DNA of 33,970 nucleotides from Acidocella sp. (lineage in GTDB: Bacteria > Pseudomonadota > Alphaproteobacteria > Acetobacterales > Acetobacteraceae): the NCBI GenBank assembly GCA_026224875.1, contig JAMFRU010000052.1, forward strand, positions 1 to 33,970, read 5' to 3'. The translations under genes were made by a program, and so were the position numbers. Positions 5,112 through 29,944 of the stretch are shown one piece after another (position 1 is the stretch's first letter; each line of letters opens with the position of its first letter). The notes below the pieces were generated by a model. That model searched no databases. It saw only the letters and a program-made list of their open reading frames with translations, and was not told the DNA's origin.

Positions 5112-5129
5112 GCCCTTGCCCGTCCGCCG

Positions 5130-5540: not shown

Positions 5541-5545
5541 GGTTT

Positions 5546-9114: not shown

Positions 9115-9185
9115 CACACGTTCCGGACAATCCTGCGGCGCAGCGCGGTCCATTCCACCTTTGCAGTAACCCAGCACGATTTATA

Positions 9186-15300: not shown

Positions 15301-18300
15301 CTGGAATCGATCGGCAGGCTGCCCTGGCCCAGCGTATCGATCTCTGAGCCATCCTCCAGCGTGATGCCGCCGCTGGTGCTGGTCGAGGTCAGGATCACGC
15401 GCGCCGCCGCCACGGTGGCGCCCGGGTCCAGCGTGATACCCGCGGCTTTGATTTCCAGAATCTGCGGCGCGAAAGCGTCGATTGCCGCGGCGCTCAGGGC
15501 CGCCACACCAGCCTCGGGATCCGGCGCCGTGGCACCATCGATCGAGAGGTCGCCGCTACTGTTGATCTGCACGGTGCCGCCGACACCGCCGCTGGCCGGC
15601 ACGAAGGAGGTGACACCGGCATCACTGAGTTCAGCCGTGTCTAGGGCTGGAATGTTCAGCACCAGACGGCCGGCATCTTCCGGCAGTTGCGGACGATTGG
15701 CGCCGAACTGCGCGGCATCGGCCACCAGGAAGTCGCTGTAACTCTCGGTGTCGTAATCGGCGTAATTCTGCACGGTCGCGGCCGGGGTGATGGTGAAACC
15801 GGTGGGCAGGCTGCTTGCGACATTGGTGTTGACCACGCCCGTCTGGCCGGCGACCACATAGGAGCCGTTCGGCAGGGCCACGACCGGGGCGGCGGCGAGA
15901 TTGGCCGCACCGTCGAATTCCACGCGGTAGCCGCCCTGGCTCAGCGCATAGGAGGCCGGCAGCAGCGTGTAGCGTCCGGCGGGCAAGCCCGGAACGCCTG
16001 CGGGAATGATGATCTGCTCGCCGACCGCCGGCGTCGACCCTGTGGCGCCTGTCTCCGTATTATCCTGCACCGGCGCCACTTCCGGCTGCCCCCCGGCGAC
16101 GATGGCATAGACCGGATCCGCACTCAGCGTCGGCTGGGTGACGCCGCCCGACGCGCCGTCCTCCAGCAGCGGCGAGACCAGCACGTCGGTCGAGCCGCCC
16201 TCGCCGCTGATAAAACCCTCGCCGGCGAGGTTGCCGCCGCCGTCGAGGTCGAGCGTGGCGCCTGGCGAGACGTTGATCTGTTGCGCACCGAGCGTGATCG
16301 TTCCGGGCTGTACGGCCGTGCCGCTCGCCAGCGTAACGGCATTCAACCCGTAAATAGTGCTGTTGCCGATCGTGGCAGCCCCGCCGTTGACGTCATAGGT
16401 GACGCCATCCGTCGTGCCGCCATAGGGGATGGTCAGCCCGGCGGCGCTGACCGAGGTAAAGCTGCCCGGCAGCAGTTCGATCGTCGCCAACGGATCGCCT
16501 GAGACAGAGACGCCAAATGTGTTCCCGGGGAGTACATTACCAATCAGCGACAACGCGCCGAAGGTGATGTTGCCGAGCGGGTTCCAGACCACCCCGCTAT
16601 CGGCGATGGTGGCGGCATCGAAGGCGATGCTGCCCTGGATGTCATCGGGTGCCACCGGGTCGTTGCCCACCGGCTGGCTGATGGTCAGCACGCCGCTGGG
16701 CAGGAACGTGCCCGTGGCGCCGGAAAGCGCAGGATCGTAACCGGCAAGGACGAAGGCCGTAGCGCCATTCGCAGCGGTCGAATAGATGACGCTGGCGCTG
16801 AGATTGACATTGGCCGTGCTGATCAACGTCGTCAGCGCTGCCGTTTCGCCCGGTCCGCTCCCCGCGAGGAACCGCATGTCGCCAGTGCTGTCGAGATTGA
16901 CGTTGGAGAAGCCGCTCAGATCCTGTGTGACCGTGCCCGCGCCGGCCGTCTCGGTCTCGATGCCACCGAAGCTGACCGCACCCGAAAGGTCGATCAGCCC
17001 TGCGTCCACGGTGAACGAGCCGCTTGAATTCACCATTGAATAGCCGGTGACGGCCTGCTCCGTGATGCTATTAGAATTCGCCGCATTGACGGCCTCATTG
17101 CCGATCAGCACGACATGCGGGGCCGCTAGCACGACCGATCCATCCCCGGTGCTCTCCGCGATCCGGCCCTGGGCGAGGGTGATGGATTGCGCCGCCGTCA
17201 GCGTCACGTCACCCTGGAACATGAAGACGTCGTTGGCCGAGAAGGAGAGCGTGCCAAAGCCGCCGGCATTGATTTGTGCGGCGCTGATCTGGCCCGTGCC
17301 GCGGAGGAGCGCGGCATCGGCAACGCCCGGTGTGAGGTCCGCGGGCAATGCCGGGGCGGTGTCCGCCTGGGTGATGGTGAGGATGCGCGGCGCATCGGGC
17401 AGGTTCTGCGCATTAAGAAGCCCGTCCGTGTCCAAAGTGAGGGACAATGAACCGCCGGCGGCCCCGGCGCCGCCCGCGGGCGCCAGCATACCGCCGTACA
17501 GGAACAGCCCGTTCTGGGATCCCAGCACGATGCTGCCGCCCGTGCCGGCAAGCTCGATCGGCTGCTCGGCCGGCGTGCCCTCGGCCCGCGCCGGCGCAGG
17601 GTTGGCCAGCGGCGGCGGCAGCTCCACGGCGGAGGACCCCGCAGCATCGAGCACCGCGCCGGTCTCGGTGATGATCACCGCTTGGTTACCGGTGATGTCG
17701 ATCGTGCCGCCGGACGGGGCGATGGCGATGCTGTCACCGGCGGCATTGCTCGCCGTGAACGGCGCGGCCGCCGTGTTGAGCTGGCTGGCGGCACCTAGCC
17801 AGACCGACAAAATCTGCCCGTCCGCATAGGTGGTGACCGGGATGACGCTGGTGATCGTGGCATTGTCGGTGATATCGATCGCCCCGCCCGGCGCCGTCAA
17901 ATCGCCGTCGATGGTCATCTGGCCGTCGCCGGTCAGGGTAATCGCCTGTTTCGGATCGACCGTAATGGAGGCTCCGGCGGGGATGTCGAGAGACCCCGTC
18001 GAATTCAGGGTCAGGCTGGCGCCTGGGCGCTGGCTGATGCTGGTGAGCTGCGTGTTGGCGGTATAGAGCGGCAATAGCGTCAGCGTGGCACCTGCCGATG
18101 TCTCTCCGCCGGTCGGCACCAAAGCGCTGGTGCCGGTGAACTGCTCGGTGGGCTCCAGCACGGCAATGGACGTATCCGGGGCGATGCTGATCTGGCCGTT
18201 CAGCGTATAGGACGAGAAACCGGCATCGAAGAAATCCGGCTGCAGCGTAACGGCCGCGGCATCGGCGGTGGCCGCGAAGCTGCCGATCCATATGTTCGGC

Positions 18301-21300
18301 GCATCGAGCGTGAGGGCGCCGCCGGCGGAAAAGCCGGTGCTCTCCAGCGTCCCGCCCAGCAGCAGATCGCCTGTTTCAGGCAAAGCGCTGTCCAGATTGA
18401 CCAGGGAGAGCGATATATTACCCCCCGCCCCGCCGGTGCGCGCGCCGTTCTGCGCAATCGCGGCGCCCGCGGAAGCATCAATCACGCTGCCCGTATCAAG
18501 CTGGAGATTGGTGGCCGAAATCAGCGACACGGCGCCGCCATTGGCGAAGGCGGCATCGTCCGGCCCTGCCGGGTCCGCAGTCATATTGGTCCATACGCCC
18601 GCGGTGTCGATCGCAGCCCCGTTGGCCAGCACGACATCGCCGGTCACCGCCGTCACGGGGTCCGCCAGCACGGTTTGCGTGGTCTCATCGACATTGCCGG
18701 CGTTGACGGTGCCGGAGGGCGCGGTGATGCCGGCCGCGATCGTAACCGCCGAGCCGGACAGGCTGACGCTGGCACCTGCAGCCAGGGTGAGCGGCGCCGT
18801 CACCCCGACCGAACCTTCGGTCAGCACATCCAGCCCGCCGAGATTTGCCTGGCTGATTGCGGCGGCATCGAAATCGCTGGTGCCGGTGAGATCATCGGGG
18901 ATGCTGCTGCCCACCGCCAGGCTATCGGCGGCATCCACCGCACCTGTGGCGCCGGTGAAGTCGACGTTTGTCGTGACGGGACCGCCATTGCCGGCGGCAT
19001 CGTCAAGCACCAGCGCGCCTGGCTCGGCGACGATATTCTGCGCCAGCAGATAGGGGTCGGTCACGCCGGGCGGCGCGGCACTCGTCTGTTCGGAGCCATT
19101 CACCACGCTGGCGTCGATGGTCCCAGCGAACAGGGAAGTCGGCGAGTCCAGTGTCAGCGTGCCGGCATCGCGCCCTTCGGTATAGCCAGCCTCCTCGATG
19201 GCCGACGGATCGACCAGCGGGTTGGTGTAGACCTCGCCTACGCCCCAGGTCGCGTGATCTTCCAGGAAGCCGTTATAGACACCGGCATAGGTGATATAGG
19301 CGGGAGCTGTGTTGACGTTATAGACCTGCCCGTCCTCGCCCAGCAGATAGCTCTGATTGACCAGCCCGGCCTGGTACTGAATGGCGCCACCATCCATGTT
19401 GAAGACCGAGCCGGTCTGCGCCACAATCGCGCCGGCAGTACCTGTCTGCAGCGTGATGGCCCCGCCGGACGCGGTCCATTCGCCGATTTCATGGCCGGTG
19501 GTGGCGAGATAGCCGGAGACCTCCAGCACGCCGCCTTCGGTATAATCGCGCGCGGTGGCATAGCCGCCCGTGCCGGCCGCGACGGTGCTCAGGTCCCGGG
19601 CGTCGACATAGACCATGCTGTTGTTCAGATTGCCGGTGAGCCGGTTCTGCGCATCGTCGCGCTGCTCGAAGCCCTGGACATTGACCGCGATGTCATTGGC
19701 GGAGACCGGCAGAGCGATGCCGGTGCCGGAAACATCGATGACCGCGCCGCTGTCTGTCTGGATGCGGCTTACCGCGCTGACGGCAACCTGGCCGCCCTGC
19801 GCCATGGTCAGCGCGCCATTCTGGAATTCAACCGAATTGCCGGAGACGATTTCCACCCGCGAATCCTCCTCCTGGTCGGACAGCAGGCTGAGATCGTCAA
19901 AGCCCGGCGTGGCGACGGGGGTTTCCGCCGCCGACTGGGCGATCAGTGTGGCGCGCTGGCTGTCGAGCGCGGTCGCCGTGCTGTTCAGCGCGGGCGCGAC
20001 CATGGTCAGGCTGCCGCCGCCCAGTGTGACATTGCCATAGGGGTCCGATGCCGAGGTCAGCAGATGGATCGTGCCGCGCACCGAGACCGAGGTGGTGGAG
20101 AGCAGCACGCCGGTCTGCGCCACGCTCTCGCCGGCCAGAGTGATGTCGCCGGTATCGGCCGTGATGATGCCGCTATTGCTCACCGTGCCGCTGCCGCCGG
20201 CCAGGCTGCTGCCCTGGCTGTTCAGTTGTGGCGCTACCTCATTACCGCGGGTGGTGGAGGCCAGGTTCGCCGCCGTGCCATAGCCCGGGCGCAGCAGGAA
20301 AGAATCACCGGCGGCAAGCTCAGCCTGCCCATCGGGGGTCGTGATCGTGCCTGCATTGCTGACGCTCGTTCCCATCAGCAGCGCGAAGCCGCCGCCGGAC
20401 GTCACCGTCGTCGGCCCGGTCGTGGCGATCTGCGCCCCCGCCTGCACCGTCACCGCCCCGCCCGCATTGGTGAAGCTCGGGTTGTAACTAATCCCCGACT
20501 GCGTGCTGTAGATGCCGTTGGTCGTGAATTGCGCGTCGCTGATATCCGCCGAGGAAGCGATCAGCGCGCCGACATTGATTTGCGACGTGCCGCCGAAAAT
20601 GATGCCGTTATGATTGATCACATAGACCTGCCCGGCGCCCGCAAGCGCGCCGAGGATCTGGCTGGGCGAGCCGGAAGTGTCTTCGACACGGTTCAGCGCC
20701 ACCTCACCGGCGGTTTGGTTGAACGTCAGCGTGGTGTTTTTGCCGATGTTGAAATTCGTCCAGTTCAACGTCGCATTCGCCGCCGTCTGCTGAATGGTCA
20801 CCGCAGTTTTACCGGCATTCACGGTCTGCACCGGCGTATTGGCGCCAGTCCAGCTGGTGACGGGATTGGCGAGACCGGGGGAAGCCAGGCCACTGTCGGG
20901 CACGAGGCCGCCGGCCTGCAGCCCGTCCGCCACATTCGGCAGAGCCTGCCCCGGATGGGCCGGATCGAGGCCGAGATTATTGGCGCCCGAAACGGCTGTG
21001 GACTGGGCCGCCGCCTGGGCGGCCTGCATCGCCGTGATGGCGCGCGCGGCGGCCGCCAGATCATTCGCGGTCTGCACCGCCTGAACCTGCGTCGCTTGCC
21101 CTGCCGGGAGCGCGGACGAACTTGTTAGGGCCGGACTGCCGGTGGCGGCACTGGTCGCGGCGGTCCCCGGATTGGCCAATGCAGCGAGACCACTGGCCGT
21201 CAGCCCGCCGGCCTGCGCTGGCGCACCCGCGCATAACGCCATGCCCGCAACGATACCCCAGCGCGCCACGCCGCGCGCCGCTTTCGTAAGTCTACCGACG

Positions 21301-21374
21301 ATCACCAGCCCGTGCCCGCTGCCGGCCGGATGACTGCATCGGTCCTTACCATATCTTCGCGGGCAAGCATTCAA
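9345..21374 (-). CDS. Giant filamentous-haemagglutinin-like exoprotein (TpsA with DUF3739-type C-terminus)
   Basis: About 4000 residues. The signal peptide (GVARWGIVAGMALCAGAPAQAG) is followed by an unusual ~120-residue Ala/Gln-rich helical segment. Next comes the TPS/haemagglutination-activity domain (about residues 180-365: ATLNWTNFNIGKNTTLTFNQ, then ILGALAGAGQVYVINHNGIIFGG). The family's NPNG motif is NHNG here. Most of the rest is a Gly/Ala/Ser/Thr-rich beta-helix built of loose ~20-residue turns. The C-terminus (NAANIEVQGTTTG, an Ala run, then IFLVEVLGYGGG) is the DUF3739-type end of one FHA subfamily. The protein should be secreted by TpsB and act at the cell surface. Start: the open frame extends to a GTG at 21434, but that codon lies inside the shared promoter motif. 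A TTG at 21374 with GGAG upstream is preferred; GTG 21305 is the other option. Confidence 0.9.
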   Translation of the reverse strand: MNACPRRYGKDRCSHPAGSGHGLVIVGRLTKAARGVARWGIVAGMALCAGAPAQAGGLTASGLAALANPGTAATSAATGSPALTSSSALPAGQATQVQAVQTANDLAAAARAITAMQAAQAAAQSTAVSGANNLGLDPAHPGQALPNVADGLQAGGLVPDSGLASPGLANPVTSWTGANTPVQTVNAGKTAVTIQQTAANATLNWTNFNIGKNTTLTFNQTAGEVALNRVEDTSGSPSQILGALAGAGQVYVINHNGIIFGGTSQINVGALIASSADISDAQFTTNGIYSTQSGISYNPSFTNAGGAVTVQAGAQIATTGPTTVTSGGGFALLMGTSVSNAGTITTPDGQAELAAGDSFLLRPGYGTAANLASTTRGNEVAPQLNSQGSSLAGGSGTVSNSGIITADTGDITLAGESVAQTGVLLSTTSVSVRGTIHLLTSASDPYGNVTLGGGSLTMVAPALNSTATALDSQRATLIAQSAAETPVATPGFDDLSLLSDQEEDSRVEIVSGNSVEFQNGALTMAQGGQVAVSAVSRIQTDSGAVIDVSGTGIALPVSANDIAVNVQGFEQRDDAQNRLTGNLNNSMVYVDARDLSTVAAGTGGYATARDYTEGGVLEVSGYLATTGHEIGEWTASGGAITLQTGTAGAIVAQTGSVFNMDGGAIQYQAGLVNQSYLLGEDGQVYNVNTAPAYITYAGVYNGFLEDHATWGVGEVYTNPLVDPSAIEEAGYTEGRDAGTLTLDSPTSLFAGTIDASVVNGSEQTSAAPPGVTDPYLLAQNIVAEPGALVLDDAAGNGGPVTTNVDFTGATGAVDAADSLAVGSSIPDDLTGTSDFDAAAISQANLGGLDVLTEGSVGVTAPLTLAAGASVSLSGSAVTIAAGITAPSGTVNAGNVDETTQTVLADPVTAVTGDVVLANGAAIDTAGVWTNMTADPAGPDDAAFANGGAVSLISATNLQLDTGSVIDASAGAAIAQNGARTGGAGGNISLSLVNLDSALPETGDLLLGGTLESTGFSAGGALTLDAPNIWIGSFAATADAAAVTLQPDFFDAGFSSYTLNGQISIAPDTSIAVLEPTEQFTGTSALVPTGGETSAGATLTLLPLYTANTQLTSISQRPGASLTLNSTGSLDIPAGASITVDPKQAITLTGDGQMTIDGDLTAPGGAIDITDNATITSVIPVTTYADGQILSVWLGAASQLNTAAAPFTASNAAGDSIAIAPSGGTIDITGNQAVIITETGAVLDAAGSSAVELPPPLANPAPARAEGTPAEQPIELAGTGGSIVLGSQNGLFLYGGMLAPAGGAGAAGGSLSLTLDTDGLLNAQNLPDAPRILTITQADTAPALPADLTPGVADAALLRGTGQISAAQINAGGFGTLSFSANDVFMFQGDVTLTAAQSITLAQGRIAESTGDGSVVLAAPHVVLIGNEAVNAANSNSITEQAVTGYSMVNSSGSFTVDAGLIDLSGAVSFGGIETETAGAGTVTQDLSGFSNVNLDSTGDMRFLAGSGPGETAALTTLISTANVNLSASVIYSTAANGATAFVLAGYDPALSGATGTFLPSGVLTISQPVGNDPVAPDDIQGSIAFDAATIADSGVVWNPLGNITFGALSLIGNVLPGNTFGVSVSGDPLATIELLPGSFTSVSAAGLTIPYGGTTDGVTYDVNGGAATIGNSTIYGLNAVTLASGTAVQPGTITLGAQQINVSPGATLDLDGGGNLAGEGFISGEGGSTDVLVSPLLEDGASGGVTQPTLSADPVYAIVAGGQPEVAPVQDNTETGATGSTPAVGEQIIIPAGVPGLPAGRYTLLPASYALSQGGYRVEFDGAANLAAAPVVALPNGSYVVAGQTGVVNTNVASSLPTGFTITPAATVQNYADYDTESYSDFLVADAAQFGANRPQLPEDAGRLVLNIPALDTAELSDAGVTSFVPASGGVGGTVQINSSGDLSIDGATAPDPEAGVAALSAAAIDAFAPQILEIKAAGITLDPGATVAAARVILTSTSTSGGITLEDGSEIDTLGQGSLPIDSSNAGPYTNGGGSILDVGNGYITYTNTSSASGGPITIANGATVYTDGSIILSTGAAVNIGLDANYGAAYLDLSVPEINIGDPAAAGAASVAGLSLTPAVLQRLTAGVPGAGVPATRILALSASQSLNFFGTTSLDLSGSNVQLVIDSPAIYGFGSAGDVATISAGTIVWNGELASGASGAPGAVLANGPGYAGDGTLDFDAGTIVFGYSDLDEPARDVPLDRLTLGFATVNLNATTEITANNQGALAVYQSQTQYGAAGTGGVLNLNTPLLTGADEASMAFTAGGALNIAAPAGAAPATSLAANAAGAEIDLTAASENIDSAVILPSGKLDLQSTGDITLGAAANFDLKGDVSNVLGSTTYGAGGSLVAETSAGNITQAAGSVIDVSAAGSDAGSVALTAEAPGAGIVTLDGTLNGSAPAADTSGSFTLRAQTVPDFTALNTSLDNGGFFDARSFEIEQGNLTIGNGVEAQNISVSVDNGSLTVDGTIDASFGGAGSISLAAGNGLTLASGAVLAAEGRVLQTDSYGQPIAAANTPEVSLTTSDGALTLQSGASIDMTSADNVARGDLELNVPRLGGNTAGDADISTGTGLNISGAASIAVNAFATYNGLADTAGTASGAPDALITQAYLNQINTNDTLPYMAAAAANTDLASRLSGLAAYDSVLHFRPGVQITSATADGDLTVQGDLDLSGYRYSDPAGYGLQVNPAAYGSGEPGVVVIRAGGNLNVYGSITDGFSPPVSDAGTSYASGWVLSAGAAPNLQATVVPVSVTLALGSAIAQEGSSLNYAVPVSAGVFESGAVAPVALTLAGATQTTSAAFIATSNISRAGVTLFTAGQLVPAGTKLLSGTIIAADGSFPFTLNVAAVVWPAGIPIDIASSNNRTPLTGAVVVLSQNLTLLPGSVISGNSYISFANGGASVSTRAAAGGTQGQIYPLGQLLPAGDLSWSIRLVSGANTAAADTHAVQAASALAAVDDGGDLMLADTHYGPGAVPAFSVIRTGTGSLSLMSGGNITEDSDYGVYTAGAQAPGVSAAFELPQGLGADGTLLGNTYVSLAGLENYQANYPEGGGNVLVSAQGNLTGFIGTSGTDTDALGSWLWLQGGAGQAAAWWVEFGALEPTGGSPQLDGFQGIGTLGGGNLTLSAGGDASGLNLAVASTGRVLANGTLLQTGGGNLTADVGEAVNLSTTTGSSGLITDLRGDTTLTAGSIGMIVPAYQADDALGDDPRAVAALDTELATVTDGIDLAPGDGTVTVDTRGDLVINDVENPGIQSVQTAGIPQVDTTPVDFTTDGQTIDQSSGGETVFSLWSDATSVALNSAGGDITPYQDPRNIVSTTYYPPSLSVVAQNGNIDLVGGTVELAPAADGTLALLAADSIYGFATPSAANPDGSTTIAMSGADPDVEATPFDPLIRVTDPSTGAFEYTNGAQGNGLVLITFGADTPTEDLHQDGQAPAAILAGTDIVGLNIGQVQGGNREYIAAMPFDVVAGRDIVSSGSLGTPSLFLNLGPNDVTSITAGRDILESSFDIAGPGSLLVQAGRSIYEPGVTVTGENGTGSALESVGPLFDINPNNRDGGANITVIAGTGTTGPDYTGFENLYLDPDSTLGLQDAAAIISENDAALLNYLQTNYGYTGSTAGAYARFKQLTSDQQNLFLLTIYFNMLDQSGLEFNEADSVRYKSYALGRDAIAALFPTTGANGQPITYAGDITLFGPSGIHTDFGGAIQTLAPGGETIVGVEGATPPGSAGFITQGTGDIDIYAQDSVLLGESRVLTTFGGNVLVWSAQGDINAGRGAKTTVVYAPVQRVYDDYGNVSLSPSVPSTGAGIGTLNPIPQILPGNINLVAPVGTVDAGEAGIRVSGNLNIAAAHVLNAANIEVQGTTTGVPTVAAPDIGGLSSANNAAGAAAAAAAAAAAHPAPSDQPSIFLVEVLGYGGGSGTNAPGQKPRERKKPATQTSYDYGSPFQVLGLGPMSATQIQQVADAMRQERK

Positions 21375-21427: not shown

Positions 21428-21456
21428 TAGACACGCAACGGAGGCCGGAGCCGAAG
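21428..21456 (-). promoter_or_regulatory. Shared CTTCGGC-N15-GTGTCTA promoter motif before tpsA
   Basis: On the minus strand CTTCGGC (21456-21450) and GTGTCTA (21434-21428) are separated by exactly 15 bases. The same two boxes with the same spacing occur before fecR and before the Hint gene. Box size and spacing fit an ECF-type -35/-10 promoter. The -10-like box would place the transcript start near 21420, so translation must begin downstream of that. Confidence 0.6.
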
Positions 21457-21483
21457 TTAAAAGAAGCAGAAAATCAGTGACAA
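21456..21483 (-). promoter_or_regulatory. Possible housekeeping promoter before tpsA
   Basis: TTGTCA (21483-21478) and TTTAAC (21461-21456) are spaced by 16 bases on the minus strand. The -35 matches consensus well and the -10 poorly. It overlaps the edge of the CTTCGGC box, so tpsA could have basal plus ECF-driven expression, or this may be chance. Confidence 0.25.
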
Positions 21484-21592
21484 GTTTATGACGGTGCCGG
21501 ATCGCGGCAAATAATTTGCGCGCAAGCGCTGCGGGGCCGGTCCGCTGCATACTCAATTACTAAATCATGATAGAAAAAGCCCCGGCGGCGGC

Positions 21593-22627
21593 TCAGCTCA
21601 GGACGATGATACCGCCCGGCAATTCGACGGCGTGGGCGCCATAAATCTGCTGGATGGCTTCGAGCGCCTCATCCATGCTGCCGATGGGAAAACTGGCATT
21701 CAGCCGCCTGCGCCCCAGAACCTCGTTTGCGATGATCACGCGGCCGGGGCGATAACGGTTGATCTCTACAACAACGTCGGAAATCGGCGTCGACTCAAAC
21801 ACGACCTCCCCATCCTGCCAGGCCGTCACGATTGCGGTATTTGCTACCGAAACGGATGCGCCACCGGCATTCGCATAGGCGGCCTGGTAGCCCTGGGGCA
21901 CCTCCAGCACAGCATCGCGGTTATGAATCCGGATCGTTCCTGTCACACAAGTGACGCAGACCTTATCCTCGGTATATCTCGCGTTGAAAATCGCATCTTT
22001 CGCGACAATACGGCCGCCTGCCGCCGTCACGACAAAGGGCTCGCCCATCTCTCGTGATGCCGAAACCATGATTTCACCCGAGATCAGTTCCAACTGACTG
22101 CCTTGCGGCGATATATCGAGGCTGGTCCGGGTGTTCATCTCAATTTTTATATTGTCTGACAGCAATATCTGCCGTTGCTGTCCCGTCCTGGTCCGGTAAT
22201 CCGCCTGAACCTCGCTCCAGGATGGCCAGAGGCCGAATGGCGGGTTGACGGCTGAAACGGCAACGGCCGCCGATGCGCCCAGCATGCCGCCGACCAGCCG
22301 GCGACGGCCCAAAGCCTGCGTGATCAGCCTGGGCCGGCCCATATTTATCCGGCTAACATTCGATGAGCCACGGAACGATGAAAGGGGCCGCCGCAAGGAA
22401 TCCGGCTCGATGCCTCCCAGTATCTTCCAAATCCTGTACGCATCGGTAAACGCAGCCTTGCGCGCCTCACTGCGTGACGCCCAGCGCATGGCCTTTTCAA
22501 GATCAGACGAACGGCCCTTTCCCGAAACCACTCCCGAAGACAAGCGCAAAACCCACGCCAAAGCATCGCGCTCGATCCTCGACTTGGTTTTGTCCGTATC
22601 CGCATTGGCAGGCGACGCAAAAATCAT
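21593..22627 (-). CDS. FecR-like anti-sigma factor / membrane signal transducer
   Basis: 344 residues from ATG 22627, which has AGGA 8 bases upstream; the longer open frame back to 22756 overlaps the sigma gene and lacks such support. The N-terminal cytoplasmic part (RDALAWVLRLSSG...MRWASRSEARKAAFTDAYRIWKIL) is the DUF4880-type segment that binds the sigma factor. A basic stretch and membrane helix follow (GRRRLVGGMLGASAAVAVSAV, about residues 107-127). The periplasmic FecR domain (YRTRTGQQRQILLSDNIKIEMNTRTSLDI...GEIMVSA...FVVTAAGGRIVAKDAIFNAR) ends in an STN-like C-terminal domain (PISDVVVEINRYRPGRVIIANE). It should relay a periplasmic signal to the FecI-like sigma factor just upstream. A CTTCGGC-N15-GTGTCTA motif precedes it. 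Confidence 0.88.
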   Translation of the reverse strand: MIFASPANADTDKTKSRIERDALAWVLRLSSGVVSGKGRSSDLEKAMRWASRSEARKAAFTDAYRIWKILGGIEPDSLRRPLSSFRGSSNVSRINMGRPRLITQALGRRRLVGGMLGASAAVAVSAVNPPFGLWPSWSEVQADYRTRTGQQRQILLSDNIKIEMNTRTSLDISPQGSQLELISGEIMVSASREMGEPFVVTAAGGRIVAKDAIFNARYTEDKVCVTCVTGTIRIHNRDAVLEVPQGYQAAYANAGGASVSVANTAIVTAWQDGEVVFESTPISDVVVEINRYRPGRVIIANEVLGRRRLNASFPIGSMDEALEAIQQIYGAHAVELPGGIIVLS

Positions 22628-22655
22628 ACCGATCCTTTTGAGCAGTTTGACCAAA

Positions 22656-23249
22656 TCATCCGCACTCCTTGACCTTAGACACATCTGGAAGTGCCAAGCC
22701 GAAGTGCTGCGGCATTTTTTTTTCGAGCACCTGTTTTTCCAGCGGCTGTCTTTCAAGCGCCTGAGCGCAATGGAAAACGGCGCGCTGCAGATCCGTTTCG
22801 ATCGTGCGCTGTGTTACACCGAACTCCTGCGCCAGAATCTTGAGGGGAATTCCTTCGTATCGGGATCCAATCAATACTCGGCTTTGGCGCGGGGTGAGTT
22901 GAGCAATCGCGGCTCTCACCTGCTCCATCTCCTCGCGCGCGATCAGAATGCGTTCCTGGTTCGGCCCATCCTCCTGGATTTCAAAAAACTCCTCAAATTC
23001 CTCGATGCTTACACTTCCCCGGTCGCGCCGCACGCGGTTCAGGGCAATACGATATGCCATGCTCAGCAGGTAGGGTTTGGCCTGCCGGACAGGATCGATC
23101 GGCGGCCCCATTTCCAGCCTAAGCCAAGTATCCTGAAGCGCCTCACTGGCGAGGTCCGCCGAGCCCAGGCGAATGGACAGCCGACGCTTCAAATCGTCAT
23201 ACTGCGCCAAAAAAGACTGCAACAAAGCAAATTTGTCTAAAAATGGCAT
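22656..23249 (-). CDS. FecI-like ECF sigma factor
   Basis: About 197 residues. Region 2 spans DDLKRRLSIRLGSADLASEALQDTWLRL to KPYLLSMAYRIALNRVRRDR, where the -10 box would be contacted. Region 4 is LTPRQSRVLIGSRYEGIPLKILAQEFGVTQRTIETDLQRA, a clear helix-turn-helix. A ~35-residue tail after region 4 (PLEKQVLEKKMPQHFG...) is longer than usual, and its DNA contains the promoter motif for fecR. Start: ATG 23249 is preferred because a likely promoter lies at 23277-23305; a TTG at 23264 is also in frame. It stops 28 bases before fecR and follows the STN protein gene by about 80 bases. It is predicted to drive fecR, tpsA and the Hint gene. Confidence 0.9.
   Translation of the reverse strand: MPFLDKFALLQSFLAQYDDLKRRLSIRLGSADLASEALQDTWLRLEMGPPIDPVRQAKPYLLSMAYRIALNRVRRDRGSVSIEEFEEFFEIQEDGPNQERILIAREEMEQVRAAIAQLTPRQSRVLIGSRYEGIPLKILAQEFGVTQRTIETDLQRAVFHCAQALERQPLEKQVLEKKMPQHFGLALPDVSKVKECG
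22676..22704 (-). promoter_or_regulatory. Shared CTTCGGC-N15-GTGTCTA promoter motif before fecR
   Basis: CTTCGGC (22704-22698) and GTGTCTA (22682-22676) are 15 bases apart, inside the last codons of the sigma-factor gene. A transcript would start near 22668 and reach the fecR ATG (22627) after about 40 bases. Placement inside coding sequence, with the same spacing as the two intergenic copies, argues for function rather than shared coding. Confidence 0.6.
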
Positions 23250-23276
23250 CCAGCTCGCGGTCAAATACTAATCGGG

Positions 23277-23305
23277 AGTTTACCCAGGGATTGTTTTGAT
23301 GACAA
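23277..23305 (-). promoter_or_regulatory. Probable housekeeping promoter of the sigma-factor gene
   Basis: TTGTCA (23305-23300) is 17 bases from TAAACT (23282-23277) on the minus strand. The -35 matches consensus at 5 of 6 positions and the -10 at 4 of 6. It lies in the short gap between the STN gene and the sigma gene and would give a leader of about 20 bases before ATG 23249, which supports that start. Confidence 0.45.
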
Positions 23306-23328
23306 GCAATATCAGGTGAATAGAAAAT

Positions 23329-24054
23329 TCAATCCGCCGCCGCGCAACGGGGCTCATCATCGGCCGCGGCGGTGAAGATCACCATCGTGACAGGTTGGGG
23401 CATTCCTGCGGGCGGAAGCTGGCCGAATGAAAGCCCGATGATGTCCATGCCGATTTCGGCATTCAGGGCCGGATCATTATCCGGCTTCAGAATTCGCACA
23501 TCCGATATGGCGCCGGACTCATCGATCCAGAAGCTGAGGAAAATATCCCCCGGCTCGGCCTGCAGGGCCGTATCGGCACAGAGTTTCCGGCTGATCGCGG
23601 ACTGCATGACGCCAAGAAACGGCCCGAAGCTTGCCATGAGGTTTTGCGCCTTCGGCATCTGGCCTGCGCTTTTCTGCACGGGATAGGTGATGGTGAACGC
23701 ATTCTGATCCGCAAGGGGCGTGACAGCATAGCCCGTGCCGGCCAGGAGGGCCTGCAAGGCGGCACGCGGCGAGAACTGCCCCGCGACGGGGGCTGAACGC
23801 CGGTTTGCCGCCAGGCTGCTATCGTAATATAAATGGCAGCCTGTCGCCGTGGCGAATGTCTCCAAAGCCTTGACGAGGGCCTCGGCCGGAATGTCAAACC
23901 GCATTTCAGCGGTGGGCTGCTGCGCATGCGCCCGGTATGCCGTCCCCCCGGGCAAGAATAACGTCACGGAAATGACACAAAGCACCAGCCTGTTACGCAG
24001 CAGCTGATTTAAACAACTTGCTTGCCGCCCCAAGCGCCGCTTGGCGCTGCGCAA
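23329..24054 (-). CDS. Periplasmic STN-domain protein with a TonB-like C-terminal domain
   Basis: 241 residues. The signal peptide (LVLCVISVTLFLPGGTAYRAHA) ends near residue 44. Residues ~50-120 form an STN (secretin/TonB short N-terminal) domain: MRFDIPAEALVKALETFATATGCHLYYD, then FSPRAALQALLAGTGYAVTPLADQNAFTITY. Residues ~165-230 (FLSFWIDESGAISDVRILKPDNDPALNAEI...LPPAGMPQPVTMVIF) resemble the C-terminal domain of the TonB at 4380-5111, including the shared LPPAG(I/M)P turn. In Fec-type systems the STN domain of a TonB-dependent receptor touches FecR; here it sits on a soluble periplasmic protein beside fecI/fecR. The start is a TTG with no good ribosome binding site, and no ATG or GTG lies upstream in frame. 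Confidence 0.82.
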   Translation of the reverse strand: MRSAKRRLGRQASCLNQLLRNRLVLCVISVTLFLPGGTAYRAHAQQPTAEMRFDIPAEALVKALETFATATGCHLYYDSSLAANRRSAPVAGQFSPRAALQALLAGTGYAVTPLADQNAFTITYPVQKSAGQMPKAQNLMASFGPFLGVMQSAISRKLCADTALQAEPGDIFLSFWIDESGAISDVRILKPDNDPALNAEIGMDIIGLSFGQLPPAGMPQPVTMVIFTAAADDEPRCAAAD

Positions 24055-24234
24055 AACTGAAATACGCCAGATAACGACAGCGCGCTCCTATCATGCGGCG
24101 GCAACCGGCAGCGCCGGTGTACAGCACACATAATGCTTCCGCCTATGAAGCCACAAGGCAAATGCCGGGCGATGTTGATACTTTCGCGCCCGGCCGGCCC
24201 GCACCGGGACCATCCGGCATGTCTCCGCCGCAGC
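24055..24234. other. Intergenic stretch upstream of the STN gene
   Basis: A 180-base gap. It contains an AGGAG about 25 bases upstream of the TTG start, too far for that codon, and a partial match to the shared motif (CTTC...GTGTGCT with 17 bases between) that I do not count. No terminator is clear behind the AraC-like gene. Confidence 0.3.
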
Positions 24235-24663
24235 TCAGCCCTGGTTCCCGCCGGGCTTGTCCCGTGACTGCAAGCTGGGCGGCGCGTTCATATCGGTCAG
24301 CCACATCCCAAAGCGCATCTTAAAAAATCGTTGCGCCACATTAAGGGAGCCGAACCCGCATTGCAGCGCCGCCACTCTGGGCGACAGAGACACATCCGCC
24401 TCCAGACGCCGCTTCAATTCATCCAACCGCACATTCCGCAACCCGGCCTGCAGGCCCACGCCGCGGACGATGACGAACAGCCGGTTCAGCTCCTTGATAT
24501 CCACCCTGGCGTAACCCGTCAGCGTTTCCTCCGAGAACCACTCCGGCAACGCTGTCAGCACCATATGCTCAATGGTTTCGACCACCGTTTGAGCGTCTTC
24601 GCCTGGCCGGCGGAACTCACTCAGGCGCGTGAGCCTCTCCTCCGGCAACGAGGCAAGCTCCAT
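24235..24663 (-). CDS. Small protein with AraC-like helix-turn-helix at the C-terminus
   Basis: 142 residues. The first ~75 residues are not recognised (MELASLPEERLTRLSEFRRPGEDAQ..., HMVLTALPEWFSEE). Residues ~75-125 follow the AraC-family DNA-binding pattern: LDELKRRLEADVSLSPRVAALQCGFGSLNVAQRFFKMRFGMWLTDM, where a helix-turn-helix CGFGSLN..QRFFKMRFGM matches the second HTH of that family. It starts 9 bases after the Hint gene stop, with AAGG 7 bases upstream, so the two are probably cotranscribed. It is much shorter than normal AraC regulators (about 250-300 residues) and may be a reduced regulator or a remnant. It might regulate its neighbour. Confidence 0.6.
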   Translation of the reverse strand: MELASLPEERLTRLSEFRRPGEDAQTVVETIEHMVLTALPEWFSEETLTGYARVDIKELNRLFVIVRGVGLQAGLRNVRLDELKRRLEADVSLSPRVAALQCGFGSLNVAQRFFKMRFGMWLTDMNAPPSLQSRDKPGGNQG

Positions 24664-24672
24664 CCGCCAACC

Positions 24673-26979
24673 TTACGCCGCCTGCGACTGCCGGATGCGT
24701 GCCAGCGTGCCGGGGACCGCAAGCACCGCGCCGTCGCTGCTGCGCCGGACCTCGATATCTCCCAAGGCATCCGCGGCACAGGCAAACATAAACCCATGGC
24801 ATCCGCTGCCCAGTCCGGCCGCACGCAGGTCGGGGCGGTAGATATCGGCCAGCACATTGGCGATGCGCGTCCCGTTCAGCAGAATATCCAGCGCGACCGG
24901 CTCTTCCGGCGCGTCACAATCCTGCGCCCAGCCGGACACGATATGCGGCCCATCCTGGTCCACAAAGCCACGCAGCGGACCCTGTGGTGCCGCAGGCGGT
25001 GCCACGCCCGCACGTGCGGCCAGAAGCCGGTAAGCCATCTGCAGCTGCCACCCGTGGTCGGCACGCGGCAGAGCCGGCCCATCCGGTGCTGCGCCGGGAT
25101 AAAGCGCATGGAATTCCGCCGCGTTCTGGAAGAGCGCGCGCAGGCCATATTCCTCCTGCTCCAGAAAACTTTCCACCGCGCAATTTTCCGCCAGGATCAC
25201 CTCATGCCGCTCCAGCTCTACGTGGAAATACTCCACCTGCTCCACCGCCACCGCCTGGGTGACCGACACGCCGTTGACGAGCCGCCAGGCCGGCACGAGG
25301 ATGCCGTTGACGAAAATGCCATGGCCAGGCGAGACATGCAGGTCGCGGGCGGGGCTGGCAGGGGTGATCGCGCCCGCCTTGATGCAGACCGGCAGCGCCA
25401 GATGGTTCTTCGCGATCATCCGCCCGGCATAGGCACGCCGGCCGATCCATTTGACCGGTTGCATCCCACCCGCAAGTGTTGCCACCAGATCGCCGATCGC
25501 CAGCGCCTCGACCGCCACCTCGCCGCGCGAAGTGCGGATCAGCGTGCCCCGGCAGAAACATGTCACCGCCCCCACCACGATATCCGTACCGCCATTTCCG
25601 TCGCTGGACAGCGCGAAAGACGGGTTGCCGCCGAGGCCGGAGAAGTTGATGTTATAGCTCCCGGACGCATTGGAGATGGCCAGATAACCATAGCTCGGGC
25701 CGCTGACGGAAAGCTCGGTATAGGCCGCGCTTTCACCGGCGGTGAAGGTAACCCCGGTCAGGTCGAGCGTATCGCCCGTGGCAAACCCGGCAAATGTCTG
25801 CCCGCTTGCCACCGCGGCGCTGTCGCCTTCGAGCAGCCAGGAAGTGCCCGCCGCGATCTCGATCGTGTTGAAATTCTGGAAGGAAGTGCCGAGTGCGGCC
25901 GTCCCGGAGGAGGCCGCGAGGTCGAGGATATTGTTCGTAATGTTGCCGCCTCCGGAGATCGCGACAACATCTCCGTTGATCGTCGAGCCCTGATCGACTT
26001 CGAAGAGCAGATTGCTACCCCCGACGAGAACGGCATCATTTCCGCCACCAATATAGCCGGCATTGATCACAGTGCCGCCGGCGCCCAGGAAAATACCGTC
26101 ACCGGTTTTACTGACGATCGCGCCCAGATTGGTCAATGTTGCGCCGCCGTCAATCTCCACAGCAAATAGAGTTCCCCCGATCGTACCGCCAGCTGCGTTG
26201 TTGACGATACCCTGTCCACCATTAGTCGCTTGGCCCGTGATGCCTGTCGCGCCGTAAATAAACCCACTGTTATTGACTATGCCGGTGTCGCCGTACGCTT
26301 GAAAGTTTTCGAGACTAATCCCAGCACCGCTAGCCAACACTGTACCCTGGTTGGTCACGGTTCCGTCACCGTTCAGGCCAATCCCATAGCCACCGGCACC
26401 ATCGATGAAGCCACCGGCGGCATTGACGACCAGGGCATATGTGCCGGTGTCGACAACGGCAAGCGCTTGATCGTCAACGACAATGGTGCCCTCATTCGTT
26501 ACAACGTCATCGGCACCCTTAATATAATTTACTAATCGGCTTGAAATTGTGGCACCGGCCGCGTTATCGATGCTGCCCCCGGCCAGCAACTTAATCCCAT
26601 ACCCGGTAGAATCGATTAGCCCTTGATTAAGGACCGTACCCACGGCACCACTGATCTTAACCGCACCATAGTAAGACTCGACCAGGCCGGATGCCGCATT
26701 GACGACAACGCCACCATTCGTAAGCGCGATGCCGCCGCCGCCATAAGCGTATCCCGATTTATTGAAGCGGCCATCGCCGCTGGCATCGAGCGTGCCGTCA
26801 TTCTGGACCGTCCACGAAGCTGCCGCATTGACCGCATAATATGCGTAATAGGCTGGCGCCCCCAACGTGACATGGGCCCCCACCGCAATGGTGACCGGGT
26901 TGGTGTAGCTGGAGGATGTCAGCACAATGCCTGACGTGATCGTACCGTTTTCCGTGATCGTCGAGCTCGGTGCGGACAT
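24673..26979 (-). CDS. Hint_2-domain protein with beta-helix-like repeat region
   Basis: 768 residues. Residues 1-470 are Gly/Asn-rich repeats of about 20 residues (VVNAASGLV, VLNQGLIDSTGYGI, TNEGTIVV, VVNAAGGFIDG, VTNQGTVLASGAG), like autotransporter or adhesin beta-helices. There is no N-terminal signal peptide. Residues 474-606 are a Hint_2 (self-processing) domain: CFCRGTLIRTSRGEVAVEALAIGD, the His motif LHVSPGHGIFVNG, and VEYFHVELERHEVILAENCAVESFLE. C474 or C476 is the candidate catalytic Cys. The C-terminal ~90 residues (GFVDQDGPHIVSGWAQD...LDILLNGTRIANVLAD) resemble a small domain often attached to alphaproteobacterial surface-polysaccharide proteins. The ATG at 26979 has GGGGGAG 6 bases upstream. 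A shared promoter motif lies about 80 bases upstream. Export route unknown, possibly a type I system. Confidence 0.82.
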   Translation of the reverse strand: MSAPSSTITENGTITSGIVLTSSSYTNPVTIAVGAHVTLGAPAYYAYYAVNAAASWTVQNDGTLDASGDGRFNKSGYAYGGGGIALTNGGVVVNAASGLVESYYGAVKISGAVGTVLNQGLIDSTGYGIKLLAGGSIDNAAGATISSRLVNYIKGADDVVTNEGTIVVDDQALAVVDTGTYALVVNAAGGFIDGAGGYGIGLNGDGTVTNQGTVLASGAGISLENFQAYGDTGIVNNSGFIYGATGITGQATNGGQGIVNNAAGGTIGGTLFAVEIDGGATLTNLGAIVSKTGDGIFLGAGGTVINAGYIGGGNDAVLVGGSNLLFEVDQGSTINGDVVAISGGGNITNNILDLAASSGTAALGTSFQNFNTIEIAAGTSWLLEGDSAAVASGQTFAGFATGDTLDLTGVTFTAGESAAYTELSVSGPSYGYLAISNASGSYNINFSGLGGNPSFALSSDGNGGTDIVVGAVTCFCRGTLIRTSRGEVAVEALAIGDLVATLAGGMQPVKWIGRRAYAGRMIAKNHLALPVCIKAGAITPASPARDLHVSPGHGIFVNGILVPAWRLVNGVSVTQAVAVEQVEYFHVELERHEVILAENCAVESFLEQEEYGLRALFQNAAEFHALYPGAAPDGPALPRADHGWQLQMAYRLLAARAGVAPPAAPQGPLRGFVDQDGPHIVSGWAQDCDAPEEPVALDILLNGTRIANVLADIYRPDLRAAGLGSGCHGFMFACAADALGDIEVRRSSDGAVLAVPGTLARIRQSQAA

Positions 26980-27055
26980 TGAAAACTCCCCCTGGGTTGC
27001 GAATAACAGACAAGCAGACGGCCCACGGATGCGGGACGAGAAAGGCGCTCATCCT

Positions 27056-27084
27056 TAGACACATGAAACATGCCGGCGCCGAAG
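27056..27084 (-). promoter_or_regulatory. Shared CTTCGGC-N15-GTGTCTA promoter motif before the Hint gene
   Basis: CTTCGGC (27084-27078) and GTGTCTA (27062-27056) are 15 bases apart, about 77 bases before the Hint ATG at 26979. This copy and the fecR copy also share the five bases after the -10-like box (AAGG) and two before it; this copy and the tpsA copy share CCGGC after the first box. It places the Hint gene in the same proposed regulon. Confidence 0.6.
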
Positions 27085-27147
27085 CGCATTTTTTCATTGT
27101 CACAAAAATTACGCGAAAGCCGGAGCACCGGGAGCCAAACACAATAA

Positions 27148-27199: not shown

Positions 27200-28510
27200 T
27201 CAGCGGCCGGTGAGGCCGGAGCATTCGGTGCCGTCGATGTTCAGCGGGTTCGTATAACCAGCGGAATTACTCAGGAACGTAGCCGCAATCGGCGCAACGT
27301 AGGACGCCGTGCCTGTGATGTCGTTGAGCGGTACAAAGCCATTGTTGGTGGCGATCGTGTCATCGGCACTCGAGACGGTCGCCGTGATAAAGTTGATCAG
27401 CAGCGTGCCGCGGGCCGCAGCGGAATAGCAGCTGCTGAGGTCAACCGTGGTGTAGCCGACGATGGGATAGCCCGAGGTGGTCGTGGGGATCAGCGGCACC
27501 CAATTCAGCGGGTTCTGGGCCGTTGCATTGGTCGAGGGCGCAGTCAGGTTGGTCGAAGTCGAGCCGGGGTTTTTCAGGCCCGTCTCCGTGTTCGCGACGC
27601 TCGGCTGGTAGTAGGTCGCGGTGGTCGCATTATACAGGCTGGCGACCTTGAGGCTGGTCGTGTTCGCCGAGCTCGGGGCGATCGAGGTGTAGTCCGGGCT
27701 CAGATAGCCGATGCCGCCGGAAACCGCGACCAGCTCTTGCGCAACGTTTGCGCTGCCGCTTTCGGCGATGAAATTATACGGCACGCCGCCGGGAAACAGC
27801 GATGCGAAATTCGTGGTGGCGGTGAAATTGATGCCATTATCATCGGTCGAGTCGCAGGCCGCGGCCAGATGCTGCGTGAACAGGTAGGTGGTGCCGCTGC
27901 TGTCCCGGCGATAGACCACGGAGATGGCCGTGGACGGCAGGGTGGAAACCACCTGGTTCCAGGTGGTGTAGGCGCCGGAGAAGATGCTGCAGACCTGCGC
28001 GTCGGTCAGTTGCAGGGTGGAGCTCAGCGAGCTCTGGTTATAAGCGACGGTAACCGGCACGCCCAGGGTCGGGATCTGGATCATCGGGCCATAGACAGCC
28101 GAGCCATTGGTGGAGGTGCCATAGGCGTCATAGCTGCCGTCCACCGCCGTGGTGAGCTGCGATGAAACGAGCGGCGCGTCGCTGGCACCGAAATCGACCT
28201 GGGTCCCGGCGATTGTGCCATAGGTGAGCGTTTTGTCGTTATAGCCATTGGCATAGCCGATGGTGTTAGTGCTGGAAACCGGCTCGAAATAGTTGATGTT
28301 GTTGGTCAGAAATCCGTTCTGCCCGGCGCCGCTGCCGGCGGCGGCATAGCTGAACAGATCGGCCGAATGGGCCGAGGTGTAGGCCGCAAACCAGGCGGCA
28401 TAGGTCGGGTAGGCAAGGCTGGAGCCACCGCCGTTGAGCGTCGGGGCCGCGTGCGCGATGCCGAGTGACAAAGCAGCGGATAAGAGAGAACAAGCCAATT
28501 TGCGTATCAT
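27200..28510 (-). CDS. PstS-like periplasmic phosphate-binding protein (copy 1)
   Basis: 436 residues from ATG 28510, which has GAGG 9-11 bases upstream. An earlier in-frame start at 28606 would read through the neighbouring terminator and is rejected. The signal peptide (CSLLSAALSLGIAHA) is followed by the mature N-terminus APTLNGGGSSLAYPTY, the PstS/DING opening. Further family motifs are AAGSGAGQNGFL, VDFGASDAPLVS and VVYRRDSSGTTYLFTQHL, all from the phosphate-binding cleft. Four cysteines could form two disulfides. It is very close to the gene at 28649, differing most in the 200-240 region (DSTDDNGINFTATTNF). No pstC/A/B follows, so it does not lie in a classic Pst transport operon. Phosphate scavenging is inferred from family. 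Confidence 0.88.
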   Translation of the reverse strand: MIRKLACSLLSAALSLGIAHAAPTLNGGGSSLAYPTYAAWFAAYTSAHSADLFSYAAAGSGAGQNGFLTNNINYFEPVSSTNTIGYANGYNDKTLTYGTIAGTQVDFGASDAPLVSSQLTTAVDGSYDAYGTSTNGSAVYGPMIQIPTLGVPVTVAYNQSSLSSTLQLTDAQVCSIFSGAYTTWNQVVSTLPSTAISVVYRRDSSGTTYLFTQHLAAACDSTDDNGINFTATTNFASLFPGGVPYNFIAESGSANVAQELVAVSGGIGYLSPDYTSIAPSSANTTSLKVASLYNATTATYYQPSVANTETGLKNPGSTSTNLTAPSTNATAQNPLNWVPLIPTTTSGYPIVGYTTVDLSSCYSAAARGTLLINFITATVSSADDTIATNNGFVPLNDITGTASYVAPIAATFLSNSAGYTNPLNIDGTECSGLTGR

Positions 28511-28597
28511 AACAATATCCTCTGGGGTTGGGTGGATGAAAGCATCAATCCGCGCGCCGGCCGGTGGCCGGGTGGGGCGATGCCAAGCGCAATAAAA

Positions 28598-28621
28598 AGC
28601 GGCCATCTCACAATGGCCGCT
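28598..28621 (-). terminator. Terminator of the second pstS-like gene
   Basis: A 9-base perfect stem, AGCGGCCAT (28598-28606) and ATGGCCGCT (28613-28621), with a 6-base loop. On the minus strand it is followed by a T-rich run (TTTTTATT). It has the same sequence and spacing as the terminator at 27148-27175, so the terminator was duplicated with the gene. Confidence 0.75.
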
Positions 28622-28648
28622 CTCTTCTTCAAATGTAGGAACGAAAGT

Positions 28649-29944
28649 TCAGCGGCCGGTGAGGCCGGAGCATTCTGTACCGTCGATGTTCAGCGGGTGC
28701 GTATAACCGGCGGAATTGCTCAGGAACGTGTCAGCAATCGCCGTGACGAAGGACGAGCCGCCGGTGATGCCGGAGAGCGGCGCGAAACCGTTGTTGGTTG
28801 CGGTCGTGTTGTAGGCAGTCGTGGCGGTCGCCGTCATGAAGTTGATGAGCAGCGTGCCGCGGGCCGCGGCAGAGTAGCAGCTGCTGAGGTCAACCGTGGT
28901 GTAACCGACGATGGGATAGCCCGAGGTGGTCGTCGGGATCAGCGGTACCCAGTTCAGCGGATTCTGGGCCGTCGCGTTGGTCGAGGGCGCGGTCAAGTTG
29001 GTCGAGGTGGAGCCGGGGTTTTCCAGGCCCGTCTCCGTGTTGCCAACGGTCGGCTGGTAGTAGGTCGCGGTGGTCGCGTTATACAGGCTGGCGACCTTGA
29101 GGCTGGTCGTGTTCGCCGAGAGCGGGGCGATCGAGGTATAGTCCGGGCTCAGATAGCCGATGCTGGCAGCAGTCGCGACCAGCTCACTGGCAACGCCGCC
29201 GCTGCCGCTTTCACCAGTGAAGTTGGACGGCACGCCGCTCGTAAACTCCGACGCGAAAACCTTCTGGGCCGTAAAGGTCACGCCATTAACCGTACCGCAC
29301 ACAGAAGCCAGATGCTGCGTGAGCAGATAGGTCGTGCCGCTGCTGTCCGTACGATAGACCACGGAGATGGCCGTGGACGGCAGGGTGGAGACAACCTGGT
29401 TCCAGGTGGTGTAGGCGCCGGAGAAGATGCTGCAGACCTGCGCGTCGGTCAGCTGCAGGGTGGAGCTCAGCGAGCTCTGGTTATAAGCGACGGTAACCGG
29501 CACGCCCAGGGTCGGGATCTGGATCGCCGGGCCATAGACGGCCGAGCCGTTGGTGGAGGTGCCATAGACGTCATAGCTGCCGTTGGCCGCGGTGGTGAAC
29601 TGCGATGAAACGAGCGGCGCATCGCTGGCACCGAAATCGACCTGGGTACCGACGATCGTGCCATAGGTAAGCGTGCCGCTGGCATAGCCAACGGTGTTGG
29701 TGCCGGAAACCGGCTCGAAATAACCGATGTTGTTGGTCAGAAACCCGCTCTGCCCGGCGCCGCTGCCGGCCGCCGCATAGCTGAACAGATCGGCCGAATG
29801 GGCCGAGGTGTAGGCCGCAAACCAGGCGGCATAGGTCGGGTAGGCAAGGCTGGAGCCACCACCGTTAAGGGTGGGGGCCGCATGCGCGGCGCCAAACGAC
29901 AGTGCCGCGGCCATGGCCAATGAGGCCAAACGTGTGCGTATCAT
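28649..29944 (-). CDS. PstS-like periplasmic phosphate-binding protein (copy 2)
   Basis: 431 residues. The signal peptide is MIRTRLASLAMAAALSFGAAHA, and the mature protein again opens APTLNGGGSSLAYPTY. The binding motifs AAGSGAGQSGFL, FGASDAPLVS and VVYRTDSSGTTYLLTQHL match copy 1, with a shorter central loop (GTVNGVTFTAQKVF). Both proteins end NIDGTECSGLTGR. A strong promoter lies ~110 bases upstream and an AAGGGAT ribosome binding site before the ATG. Copy 1 lies directly downstream, behind the terminator at 28598-28621, so most transcripts should cover copy 2 only. The gene is divergent from gspE, which lies about 950 bases away; the pair could be type II secretion substrates, as is known for some phosphate-binding DING proteins, or soluble scavengers. 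Confidence 0.88.
   Translation of the reverse strand: MIRTRLASLAMAAALSFGAAHAAPTLNGGGSSLAYPTYAAWFAAYTSAHSADLFSYAAAGSGAGQSGFLTNNIGYFEPVSGTNTVGYASGTLTYGTIVGTQVDFGASDAPLVSSQFTTAANGSYDVYGTSTNGSAVYGPAIQIPTLGVPVTVAYNQSSLSSTLQLTDAQVCSIFSGAYTTWNQVVSTLPSTAISVVYRTDSSGTTYLLTQHLASVCGTVNGVTFTAQKVFASEFTSGVPSNFTGESGSGGVASELVATAASIGYLSPDYTSIAPLSANTTSLKVASLYNATTATYYQPTVGNTETGLENPGSTSTNLTAPSTNATAQNPLNWVPLIPTTTSGYPIVGYTTVDLSSCYSAAARGTLLINFMTATATTAYNTTATNNGFAPLSGITGGSSFVTAIADTFLSNSAGYTHPLNIDGTECSGLTGR

Follow-up and report, generated by a model that had tools for sequence, protein, structure and literature searches.

A repeated bipartite motif in a VreAIR-like locus of Acidocella sp. as a predicted sigma-VreI-type promoter, with one copy inside the sigma gene

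Gene content of the locus

The DNA analyzed here (hereafter the window) is a stretch of 33,970 nucleotides from an Acidocella sp. (assembly GCA_026224875.1, contig JAMFRU010000052.1), in which the bipartite motif CTTCGGC-N15-GTGTCTA stands upstream of tpsA (21428-21456), fecR (22676-22704), and a Hint-domain gene (27056-27084), each time on the minus strand and with both 7-base boxes identical. We read these copies as predicted promoters of a neighboring sigma factor of the extracytoplasmic function (ECF) type, the copy before fecR lying within the 3'-terminal part of the gene for that sigma. On the minus strand the genes follow in the order two PstS-like, Hint_2, AraC-type HTH_18, STN, ECF sigma, FecR, giant two-partner secretion (TPS)/DUF3739 exoprotein, TpsB, ExbB, ExbD, TonB, and porin; the plus strand holds one type II secretion ATPase gene and one pilin-like gene, and the contig ends there.

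The putative VreI-like ECF sigma factor (22656..23249; Pfam Sigma70_r4_2 and our profile A1) had its open reading frame (ORF) listed from TTG 23264, ATG 23249 being the likelier start, and for the FecR-like anti-sigma factor (21593..22627; Pfam FecR) we chose ATG 22627, the longest ORF starting at 22756. The VreA-like periplasmic protein (23329..24054, 241 residues) consists of an STN domain and a TonB-like C terminus without a barrel; Pfam STN was above its cut-off, while TonB_Cterm scored 22.6 bits, below the cut-off of 27.1. The exoprotein gene tpsA (9345..21305, from the likelier start GTG 21305) is preceded by a 22-codon leader ORF (21302..21370), read from the sequence and present in the sister species too, the stop of which overlaps the tpsA GTG. 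The Hint_2 protein (24673..26979; Pfam Hint_2) is a putative regulon member, and the AraC-type HTH_18 protein (24235-24663, 142 residues) is encoded between the Hint and STN genes. The remaining annotated genes are tpsB (7495..9177; Pfam ShlB and POTRA_2), the ExbB, ExbD, and TonB genes (4380..7495, by domain matches), and two PstS-like (PBP_like_2) genes (27200..29944, by domain matches), which are tandem, closely similar, and the source of several repeated spaced words in the window. ExbB (5546-7495), a proton-channel subunit, carries DUF2341 and a laminin-G-like domain as a large fused addition. All these genes are on the minus strand.

The motif in the window, its genome, and a sister species

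The three copies with identical boxes and a 15-base gap, first listed in a preliminary description of this DNA, were found again by exact matching. That description had reasoned that 14 fixed bases would hardly recur by chance, but the argument took no account of the post-hoc choice of the motif, and some 7-N(12 to 20)-7 triple turned up in 13 of 60 dinucleotide-shuffled versions of the window, so it is insufficient in that simple form. The real window contained 39 listed triples (mirror strands counted twice), several of them within the duplicated PstS-like genes. A post-hoc triple is weak evidence on its own; comparison decides, and it is confinement and conservation that carry the claim.

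At ≤ 1 mismatch, the 3,866,373 bases of the own genome gave four matches, all in the window, and the backwards control gave six; exact matching across the 3.87 Mb found no copies beyond the three described. The fourth match, a one-mismatch copy (GTATCTA) at 7875-7903 inside tpsB, was taken as chance, as it is not conserved in the sister species (G013). The same threshold applied to 61 genomes yielded 27 matches, i.e., four in the own genome (G000), three in G013, and the other 20 dispersed among the remaining 59 genomes, with exact matches in the first two only (three and one, respectively). G013 was the single one of 36 further genomes in the genus to carry a close sigma gene (90% identical), and its three matches all lie in the sigma locus, aligned with the three window sites. 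The boxes before tpsA are identical there, and the two changes seen affect the last base of the -35 box before fecR and the last base of the -10 box before the Hint gene (to T), both at positions that are variable in distant relatives. A chance repeat of a spaced word in a GC-rich window, to which the shuffled triples would lend some credit, is extremely improbable given that G013 has the motif at each of the three orthologous positions but not elsewhere, and that the spacing is fixed in distant loci.

All copies had been placed 40-80 bases before a start codon. The distance is 48 bases to the fecR ATG (22627) and 76 bases to the Hint ATG (26979), and the listed tpsA start, GTG 21434, falls inside the -10 box; the tpsA copy stands 57 bases before the leader ORF ATG (21370), and GTG 21305 is the likelier tpsA start. 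The copy said to lie in a coding region does so, occupying the final codons for the sigma factor.

Related loci and the predicted promoter upstream of tpsA

Of 385 genomes of the class, 5 encode a DUF3739 exoprotein above the cut-off, as do 19 of 397 across the phylum (own genome included in both), and stretches around the relatives were fetched in three rounds (14, 20, and 14). The order STN-sigma-fecR-tpsA was found in seven of the nine DUF3739 loci of G391, the remaining two being cut by contig ends, and in seven further loci of G623, G604, G707, and G570. G391 (L047-L055) is a 7.4 Mb genome with nine DUF3739 exoprotein genes, seven of which have their own STN-sigma-fecR sets with apparently differing boxes. 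Other tpsA genes had no sigma gene in the fetched stretch (e.g., L086, L094, L096, L098, L099, L100, L102, and L103). A PstS-like gene precedes tpsA in eight of nine genomes of family f196 (probably Pseudomonas relatives) and genus g381, these being the eight with a fetched stretch. In L108 (G868) the tpsA frame spans 1298 residues vs. ~4200 in relatives and therefore looks broken.

Profile A1, which includes the window sigma, identified one outstanding sigma in each of the nine genomes with a related tpsA (E 1e-56 to 1e-70, next best 3e-29), situated within ~30 kb of tpsA in five of the nine and adjoined by STN and fecR in the five loci examined. On this profile-based grouping, in which no named VreI sequence was among those compared, the window sigma classifies as VreI type. 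A scan of 369 genomes from a different class with the sigma profile (E 1e-42) added nothing new, its only hits being in the already known G528 and G499.

The tpsA promoter predicted in the window (21428..21456; -35 CTTCGGC, -10 GTGTCTA) has counterparts of the same architecture in distant relatives, namely TTTCGGT-N15-GTATCTA (L055), TTTCGGT-N15-GGATCTA (L104), GTTCGGT-N15-CCGCCTA (L091), GTTCGGT-N15-TCGACTT (L107), and GTTCGGT-N15-CCGCCTT (L108, L109, L111), giving the consensus nTTCGGy-N15-nnnnCTw with a spacer constant at 15. TTCGG-N20-CT[AT] occurred before tpsA in 7 of 21 dereplicated regions, with zero or one at each other gap from 12 to 25; as four of these seven loci belong to f196, the independent support is below seven. 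The commonest spaced word in these regions was TTCGG-18-GCC (9/21; maximum 6 in 30 shuffles), ahead of TTCGG-20-CT[AT] (7/21), and the CCGCCT-type -10 boxes of f196 account for some of its occurrences, not all nine of which were traced.

When the last -10 base is set to -5, the boxes fall at -33 to -27 and -11 to -5. Mutagenesis of the Pseudomonas aeruginosa pdtA promoter found -5 to -11 essential, -33/-34 needed, and spacer length critical, with C at -30 and G at -29 (PMC4971064). The register used here fits these data save at -29/-30, an agreement of numbering only. On the strength of the fixed 15-base spacer in relatives and this register, with its one misfit, the motif is probably best read as a sigma-VreI-type promoter. 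The earlier suggestion that the boxes form the -35/-10 elements of an ECF promoter, to be used by the FecI-like sigma next to them, gains support from genome confinement, conservation in G013, and the fixed spacing in relatives, and that of a local regulon joining fecR, tpsA, and the Hint gene is likewise favored by comparison; the proposal of a recognition sequence of a new type is not supported and probably wrong, since architecture and numbering fit the sigma-VreI promoters of P. aeruginosa. The kinship with PUMA3, the pho box in front of tpsA, and the standing of the fecR copy as a conserved putative promoter within the sigma gene go beyond that description.

The boxes might instead be an operator for a DNA-binding regulator, either the HTH_18 protein, the gene of which adjoins the Hint gene, or PhoB. 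AraC-type proteins often bind direct repeats, a general property that would suit this reading. We consider it very unlikely, as the spacing does not vary from 15, the register matches that of mapped sigma-VreI promoters, a separate pho-like box lies upstream, and the motif recurs in fetched loci where the HTH_18 gene gave no match; beyond the sister species none was found in the fetched stretches, a partial scope since most of these were centered on tpsA.

The copy inside the sigma gene

The window copy at 22676..22704 encodes the FG-x6-S of the sigma tail, the putative fecR promoter thereby lying in the 3' end of the sigma gene. Of the 21 sigma genes compared, 14 encode an FG-x6-S C-terminal tail, and in these the DNA sequence is nTTCGGn-N15-nnnTCn (CTTCGGC...GTGTCTA in the window, ATTCGGT...GGATCTC in L104, GTTCGGT...CGGTCTT in L097, and GTTCGGT...CCGTCTT in L144 and L147). 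TTCGG-N19-TCT around the sigma stop was found in 9 of 19 loci, with zero or one at other gaps from 14 to 26.

Such a tail could be conserved for the protein, with the promoter match incidental, and RFGPGAGKQS is indeed identical in four genes (L095, L092, L151, and L152). The residues between FG and S vary among the genes (LALPDV, PRLPKG, PKARKE, PKSQQA, TGRSAS, PGAGKQ), while the Gly and Ser codons favor those that spell the boxes. In 12 dereplicated sigma genes (near-duplicates L059 and L152 dropped), with the other codons of the same genes as background, the tail Ser was the rare codon TCT in 9/12 vs. 4/98 other Ser codons (Fisher P 3e-8) and the tail Gly was GGT in 10/12 vs. 12/94 other Gly codons (P 1e-6); the significance of both is overstated, owing to the relatedness of the genes. 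In contrast, just 1 of 12 genes used TCT for the Ser conserved in the RLGS motif. This bias points to selection at the DNA level for a sigma-dependent anti-sigma promoter.

Two of the tail-less genes, L093 and L149, tell against the protein explanation too. L049, L053, and L093 agree with the tpsA region of the same locus at 14, 13, and 12 of the 14 box positions, respectively (~11 are reached by chance), and the L093 site (12/14) lies wholly beyond the stop codon. Candidates at or after the stop codon were noted by eye in L101, L090, and L149, that of L149 spanning it; tail-less L054 had no trusted promoter candidate. Taken together with the codon choice, the L093 and L149 sites leave conservation for the protein improbable, if somewhat less so than the operator.

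A plain maximum-similarity comparison between tpsA and sigma-tail regions yielded too much background similarity to be useful. In a narrowed comparison, pairs with at least 12/14 matches at gap 15 made up 8 of 20 within-locus vs. 37 of 380 cross-locus pairs (P 6e-4); the excess spreads over gaps 10 to 21, so that it supports the sharing of boxes, not the exact gap. Within G391 only, the figures were 3/7 within-locus vs. 2/42 cross-locus, and its cassettes contain TTCCTAT-N15-CGTCTAT twice in one and AGTTCAG-N15-nnCGTCA twice in another.

Published data on VreR allow more than one reading. In P. aeruginosa PAO1 lacking vreI, VreR was not produced though its stability was unaffected, from which the authors infer polarity (PMC4971064), and plain polarity would also suit a tail conserved for the protein. 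The same outcome is expected from losing a vreR promoter located in vreI, so these data are compatible with the promoter proposed here and partly ambiguous. The promoters tested were PvreA, PpdtA, and PphdA, with PvreA not under VreI (PMC4971064). Overexpression of vreI raised vreR >100-fold and vreA 10.3-fold (PMC2729926, Table 1); little weight is placed on this result, because a portion of vreR may be present on the plasmid insert (1.4 kb).

Possible phosphate input

A pho-box-like direct repeat (21477..21494, minus strand) lies 20 bases upstream of the tpsA -35 box, is the only 1-mismatch pho site in the window, and has a conserved counterpart in G013. Upstream of the Hint promoter only a pho-like half site was visible (27097..27114, minus strand; by eye and weak, within a 38-base stretch identical in G013), and none was seen upstream of fecR. 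The published pdtA pho half sites lie at -40 to -45 and -50 to -56 (PMC4971064), and ATGAACT-TTGC-ATGACAA in the f196 relatives stands at about this place. The own genome has 14 pho-consensus sites at ≤ 1 mismatch vs. 3 in the control; since ten proteins beside 8 of the 13 other sites included no clear phosphate gene (one ABC-transporter ATPase was undecided), the consensus is not calibrated in this genome. Phosphate control via PhoB at tpsA is plausible.

Proposed regulatory circuit

The comparison establishes the motif, its confinement within the genome, its conservation with fixed spacing, and a codon-level constraint in the sigma tail. On these grounds we consider it highly probable that the three copies are -35/-10 promoters of the adjacent VreI-like ECF sigma and that the copy in the sigma tail drives fecR. 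The FecR-like anti-sigma factor would release the sigma, and the free, active sigma would then direct transcription of tpsA, with the genes behind it reached by presumed read-through and a probable PhoB input via the pho box just upstream. It would also transcribe the Hint gene, which was encountered as an extra member in this genus alone (no Hint gene was seen in fetched loci other than that of G013), and, from the promoter in the last sigma codons, fecR, yielding more of its own inhibitor. A sigma-dependent anti-sigma promoter in the sigma tail would therefore amount to built-in negative feedback.

Several points weigh against this scheme besides the non-independence of the genes in the codon test and the restriction of the register fit to numbering. 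Recognition by this particular sigma, the transcript starts, the phosphate control, and the feedback are steps that we infer. Seven of the 21 sigma genes have no FG-x6-S tail, and TTCGG-N19-TCT was found in only 3 of 19 tpsA regions, which we attribute to variation of the -10 box. Positions -29/-30 fall inside the most conserved core, TTCGG, in the register used, a misfit with the raised activity obtained in PAO1 on changing G/C there in the pdtA promoter (PMC4971064). A complemented vreI mutant behaved as though VreR were still missing (PMC4971064), and the apparent failure of sigma in trans to restore VreR fits only if the deletion also removed the tail promoter. As for phosphate, pho sites at ≤ 3 mismatches exceed chance only slightly (21 vs. 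a mean of 14.5), and the tpsA pho box is positioned elsewhere than in the f196 relatives.

A broader proposition, to which we assign even odds, is that the VreI family carries the sigma's own promoter code in the last codons of its gene, selected at the DNA level and driving the anti-sigma gene, and that cassettes hold matched sigma-tail/tpsA pairs whose codes differ between paralogous cassettes. Regulatory DNA would then constrain a protein-coding tail, and promoter specificity might be read directly from it. If true, the sigma specificity readable from its own gene would provide a natural set of insulated sigma-promoter pairs. For the window, a motif spotted by eye becomes a predicted sigma-VreI-type promoter with a fixed grammar across distant Proteobacteria, and a published polar effect gains an alternative, testable reading.

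Comparison with known systems

By its gene content the locus is a relative of the P. aeruginosa PUMA3/VreAIR system, which is described as comprising VreA (periplasmic, STN and TonB-like, no barrel), VreI, VreR, pdtA/pdtB, exbB2D2, tonB4, and hxc type II secretion (PMC2729926, PMC4971064). Both have an STN-TonB protein without a barrel, an ECF sigma, a FecR-type anti-sigma gene after the sigma gene, and a two-partner exoprotein, with ExbB/ExbD/TonB, PstS-like, and type II secretion genes in the vicinity (PMC2729926, PMC4971064, PMC7035377). The predicted tpsA promoter, by its register and the pho-box-like repeat upstream, may be a further likeness to the pdtA/phdA promoters. In the window, unlike PUMA3, sigma, fecR, and tpsA are adjacent, a Hint gene is added, the -10 box is GTGTCTA, and the pho box lies further upstream in the opposite orientation; a vreR promoter inside vreI is not mentioned in the available parts of the published accounts.

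With E. coli FecI-FecR-FecA the locus has in common a sigma, a FecR-type regulator, and an STN signaling domain, but it has no iron receptor, and the window sigma scored 36.9 bits against the FecI model NF041727 (cut-off 260), outside the FecI equivalog family. Fur control without autoregulation is described for E. coli fecIR (PMC9249621); the feedback proposed here would be built into a signaling family that counts this textbook system among its relatives.

No VreI- or FecI-type system with an anti-sigma promoter inside the sigma gene came to light in the literature searched, which included the accessible portions of PMC4971064, PMC2729926, PMC7035377, and PMC9249621. Novelty lies in the conserved predicted promoter within the sigma gene and, with less certainty, in the private promoter codes of paralogous cassettes. 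The closest precedent for the arrangement is Corynebacterium glutamicum SigH-RshA, in which the anti-sigma gene has its own sigma-dependent promoter in the sigma coding region (PMC3489674). That system involves another sigma family and stress, whereas the arrangement described here recurs in many loci and is visible in the codon choice of the sigma tail.

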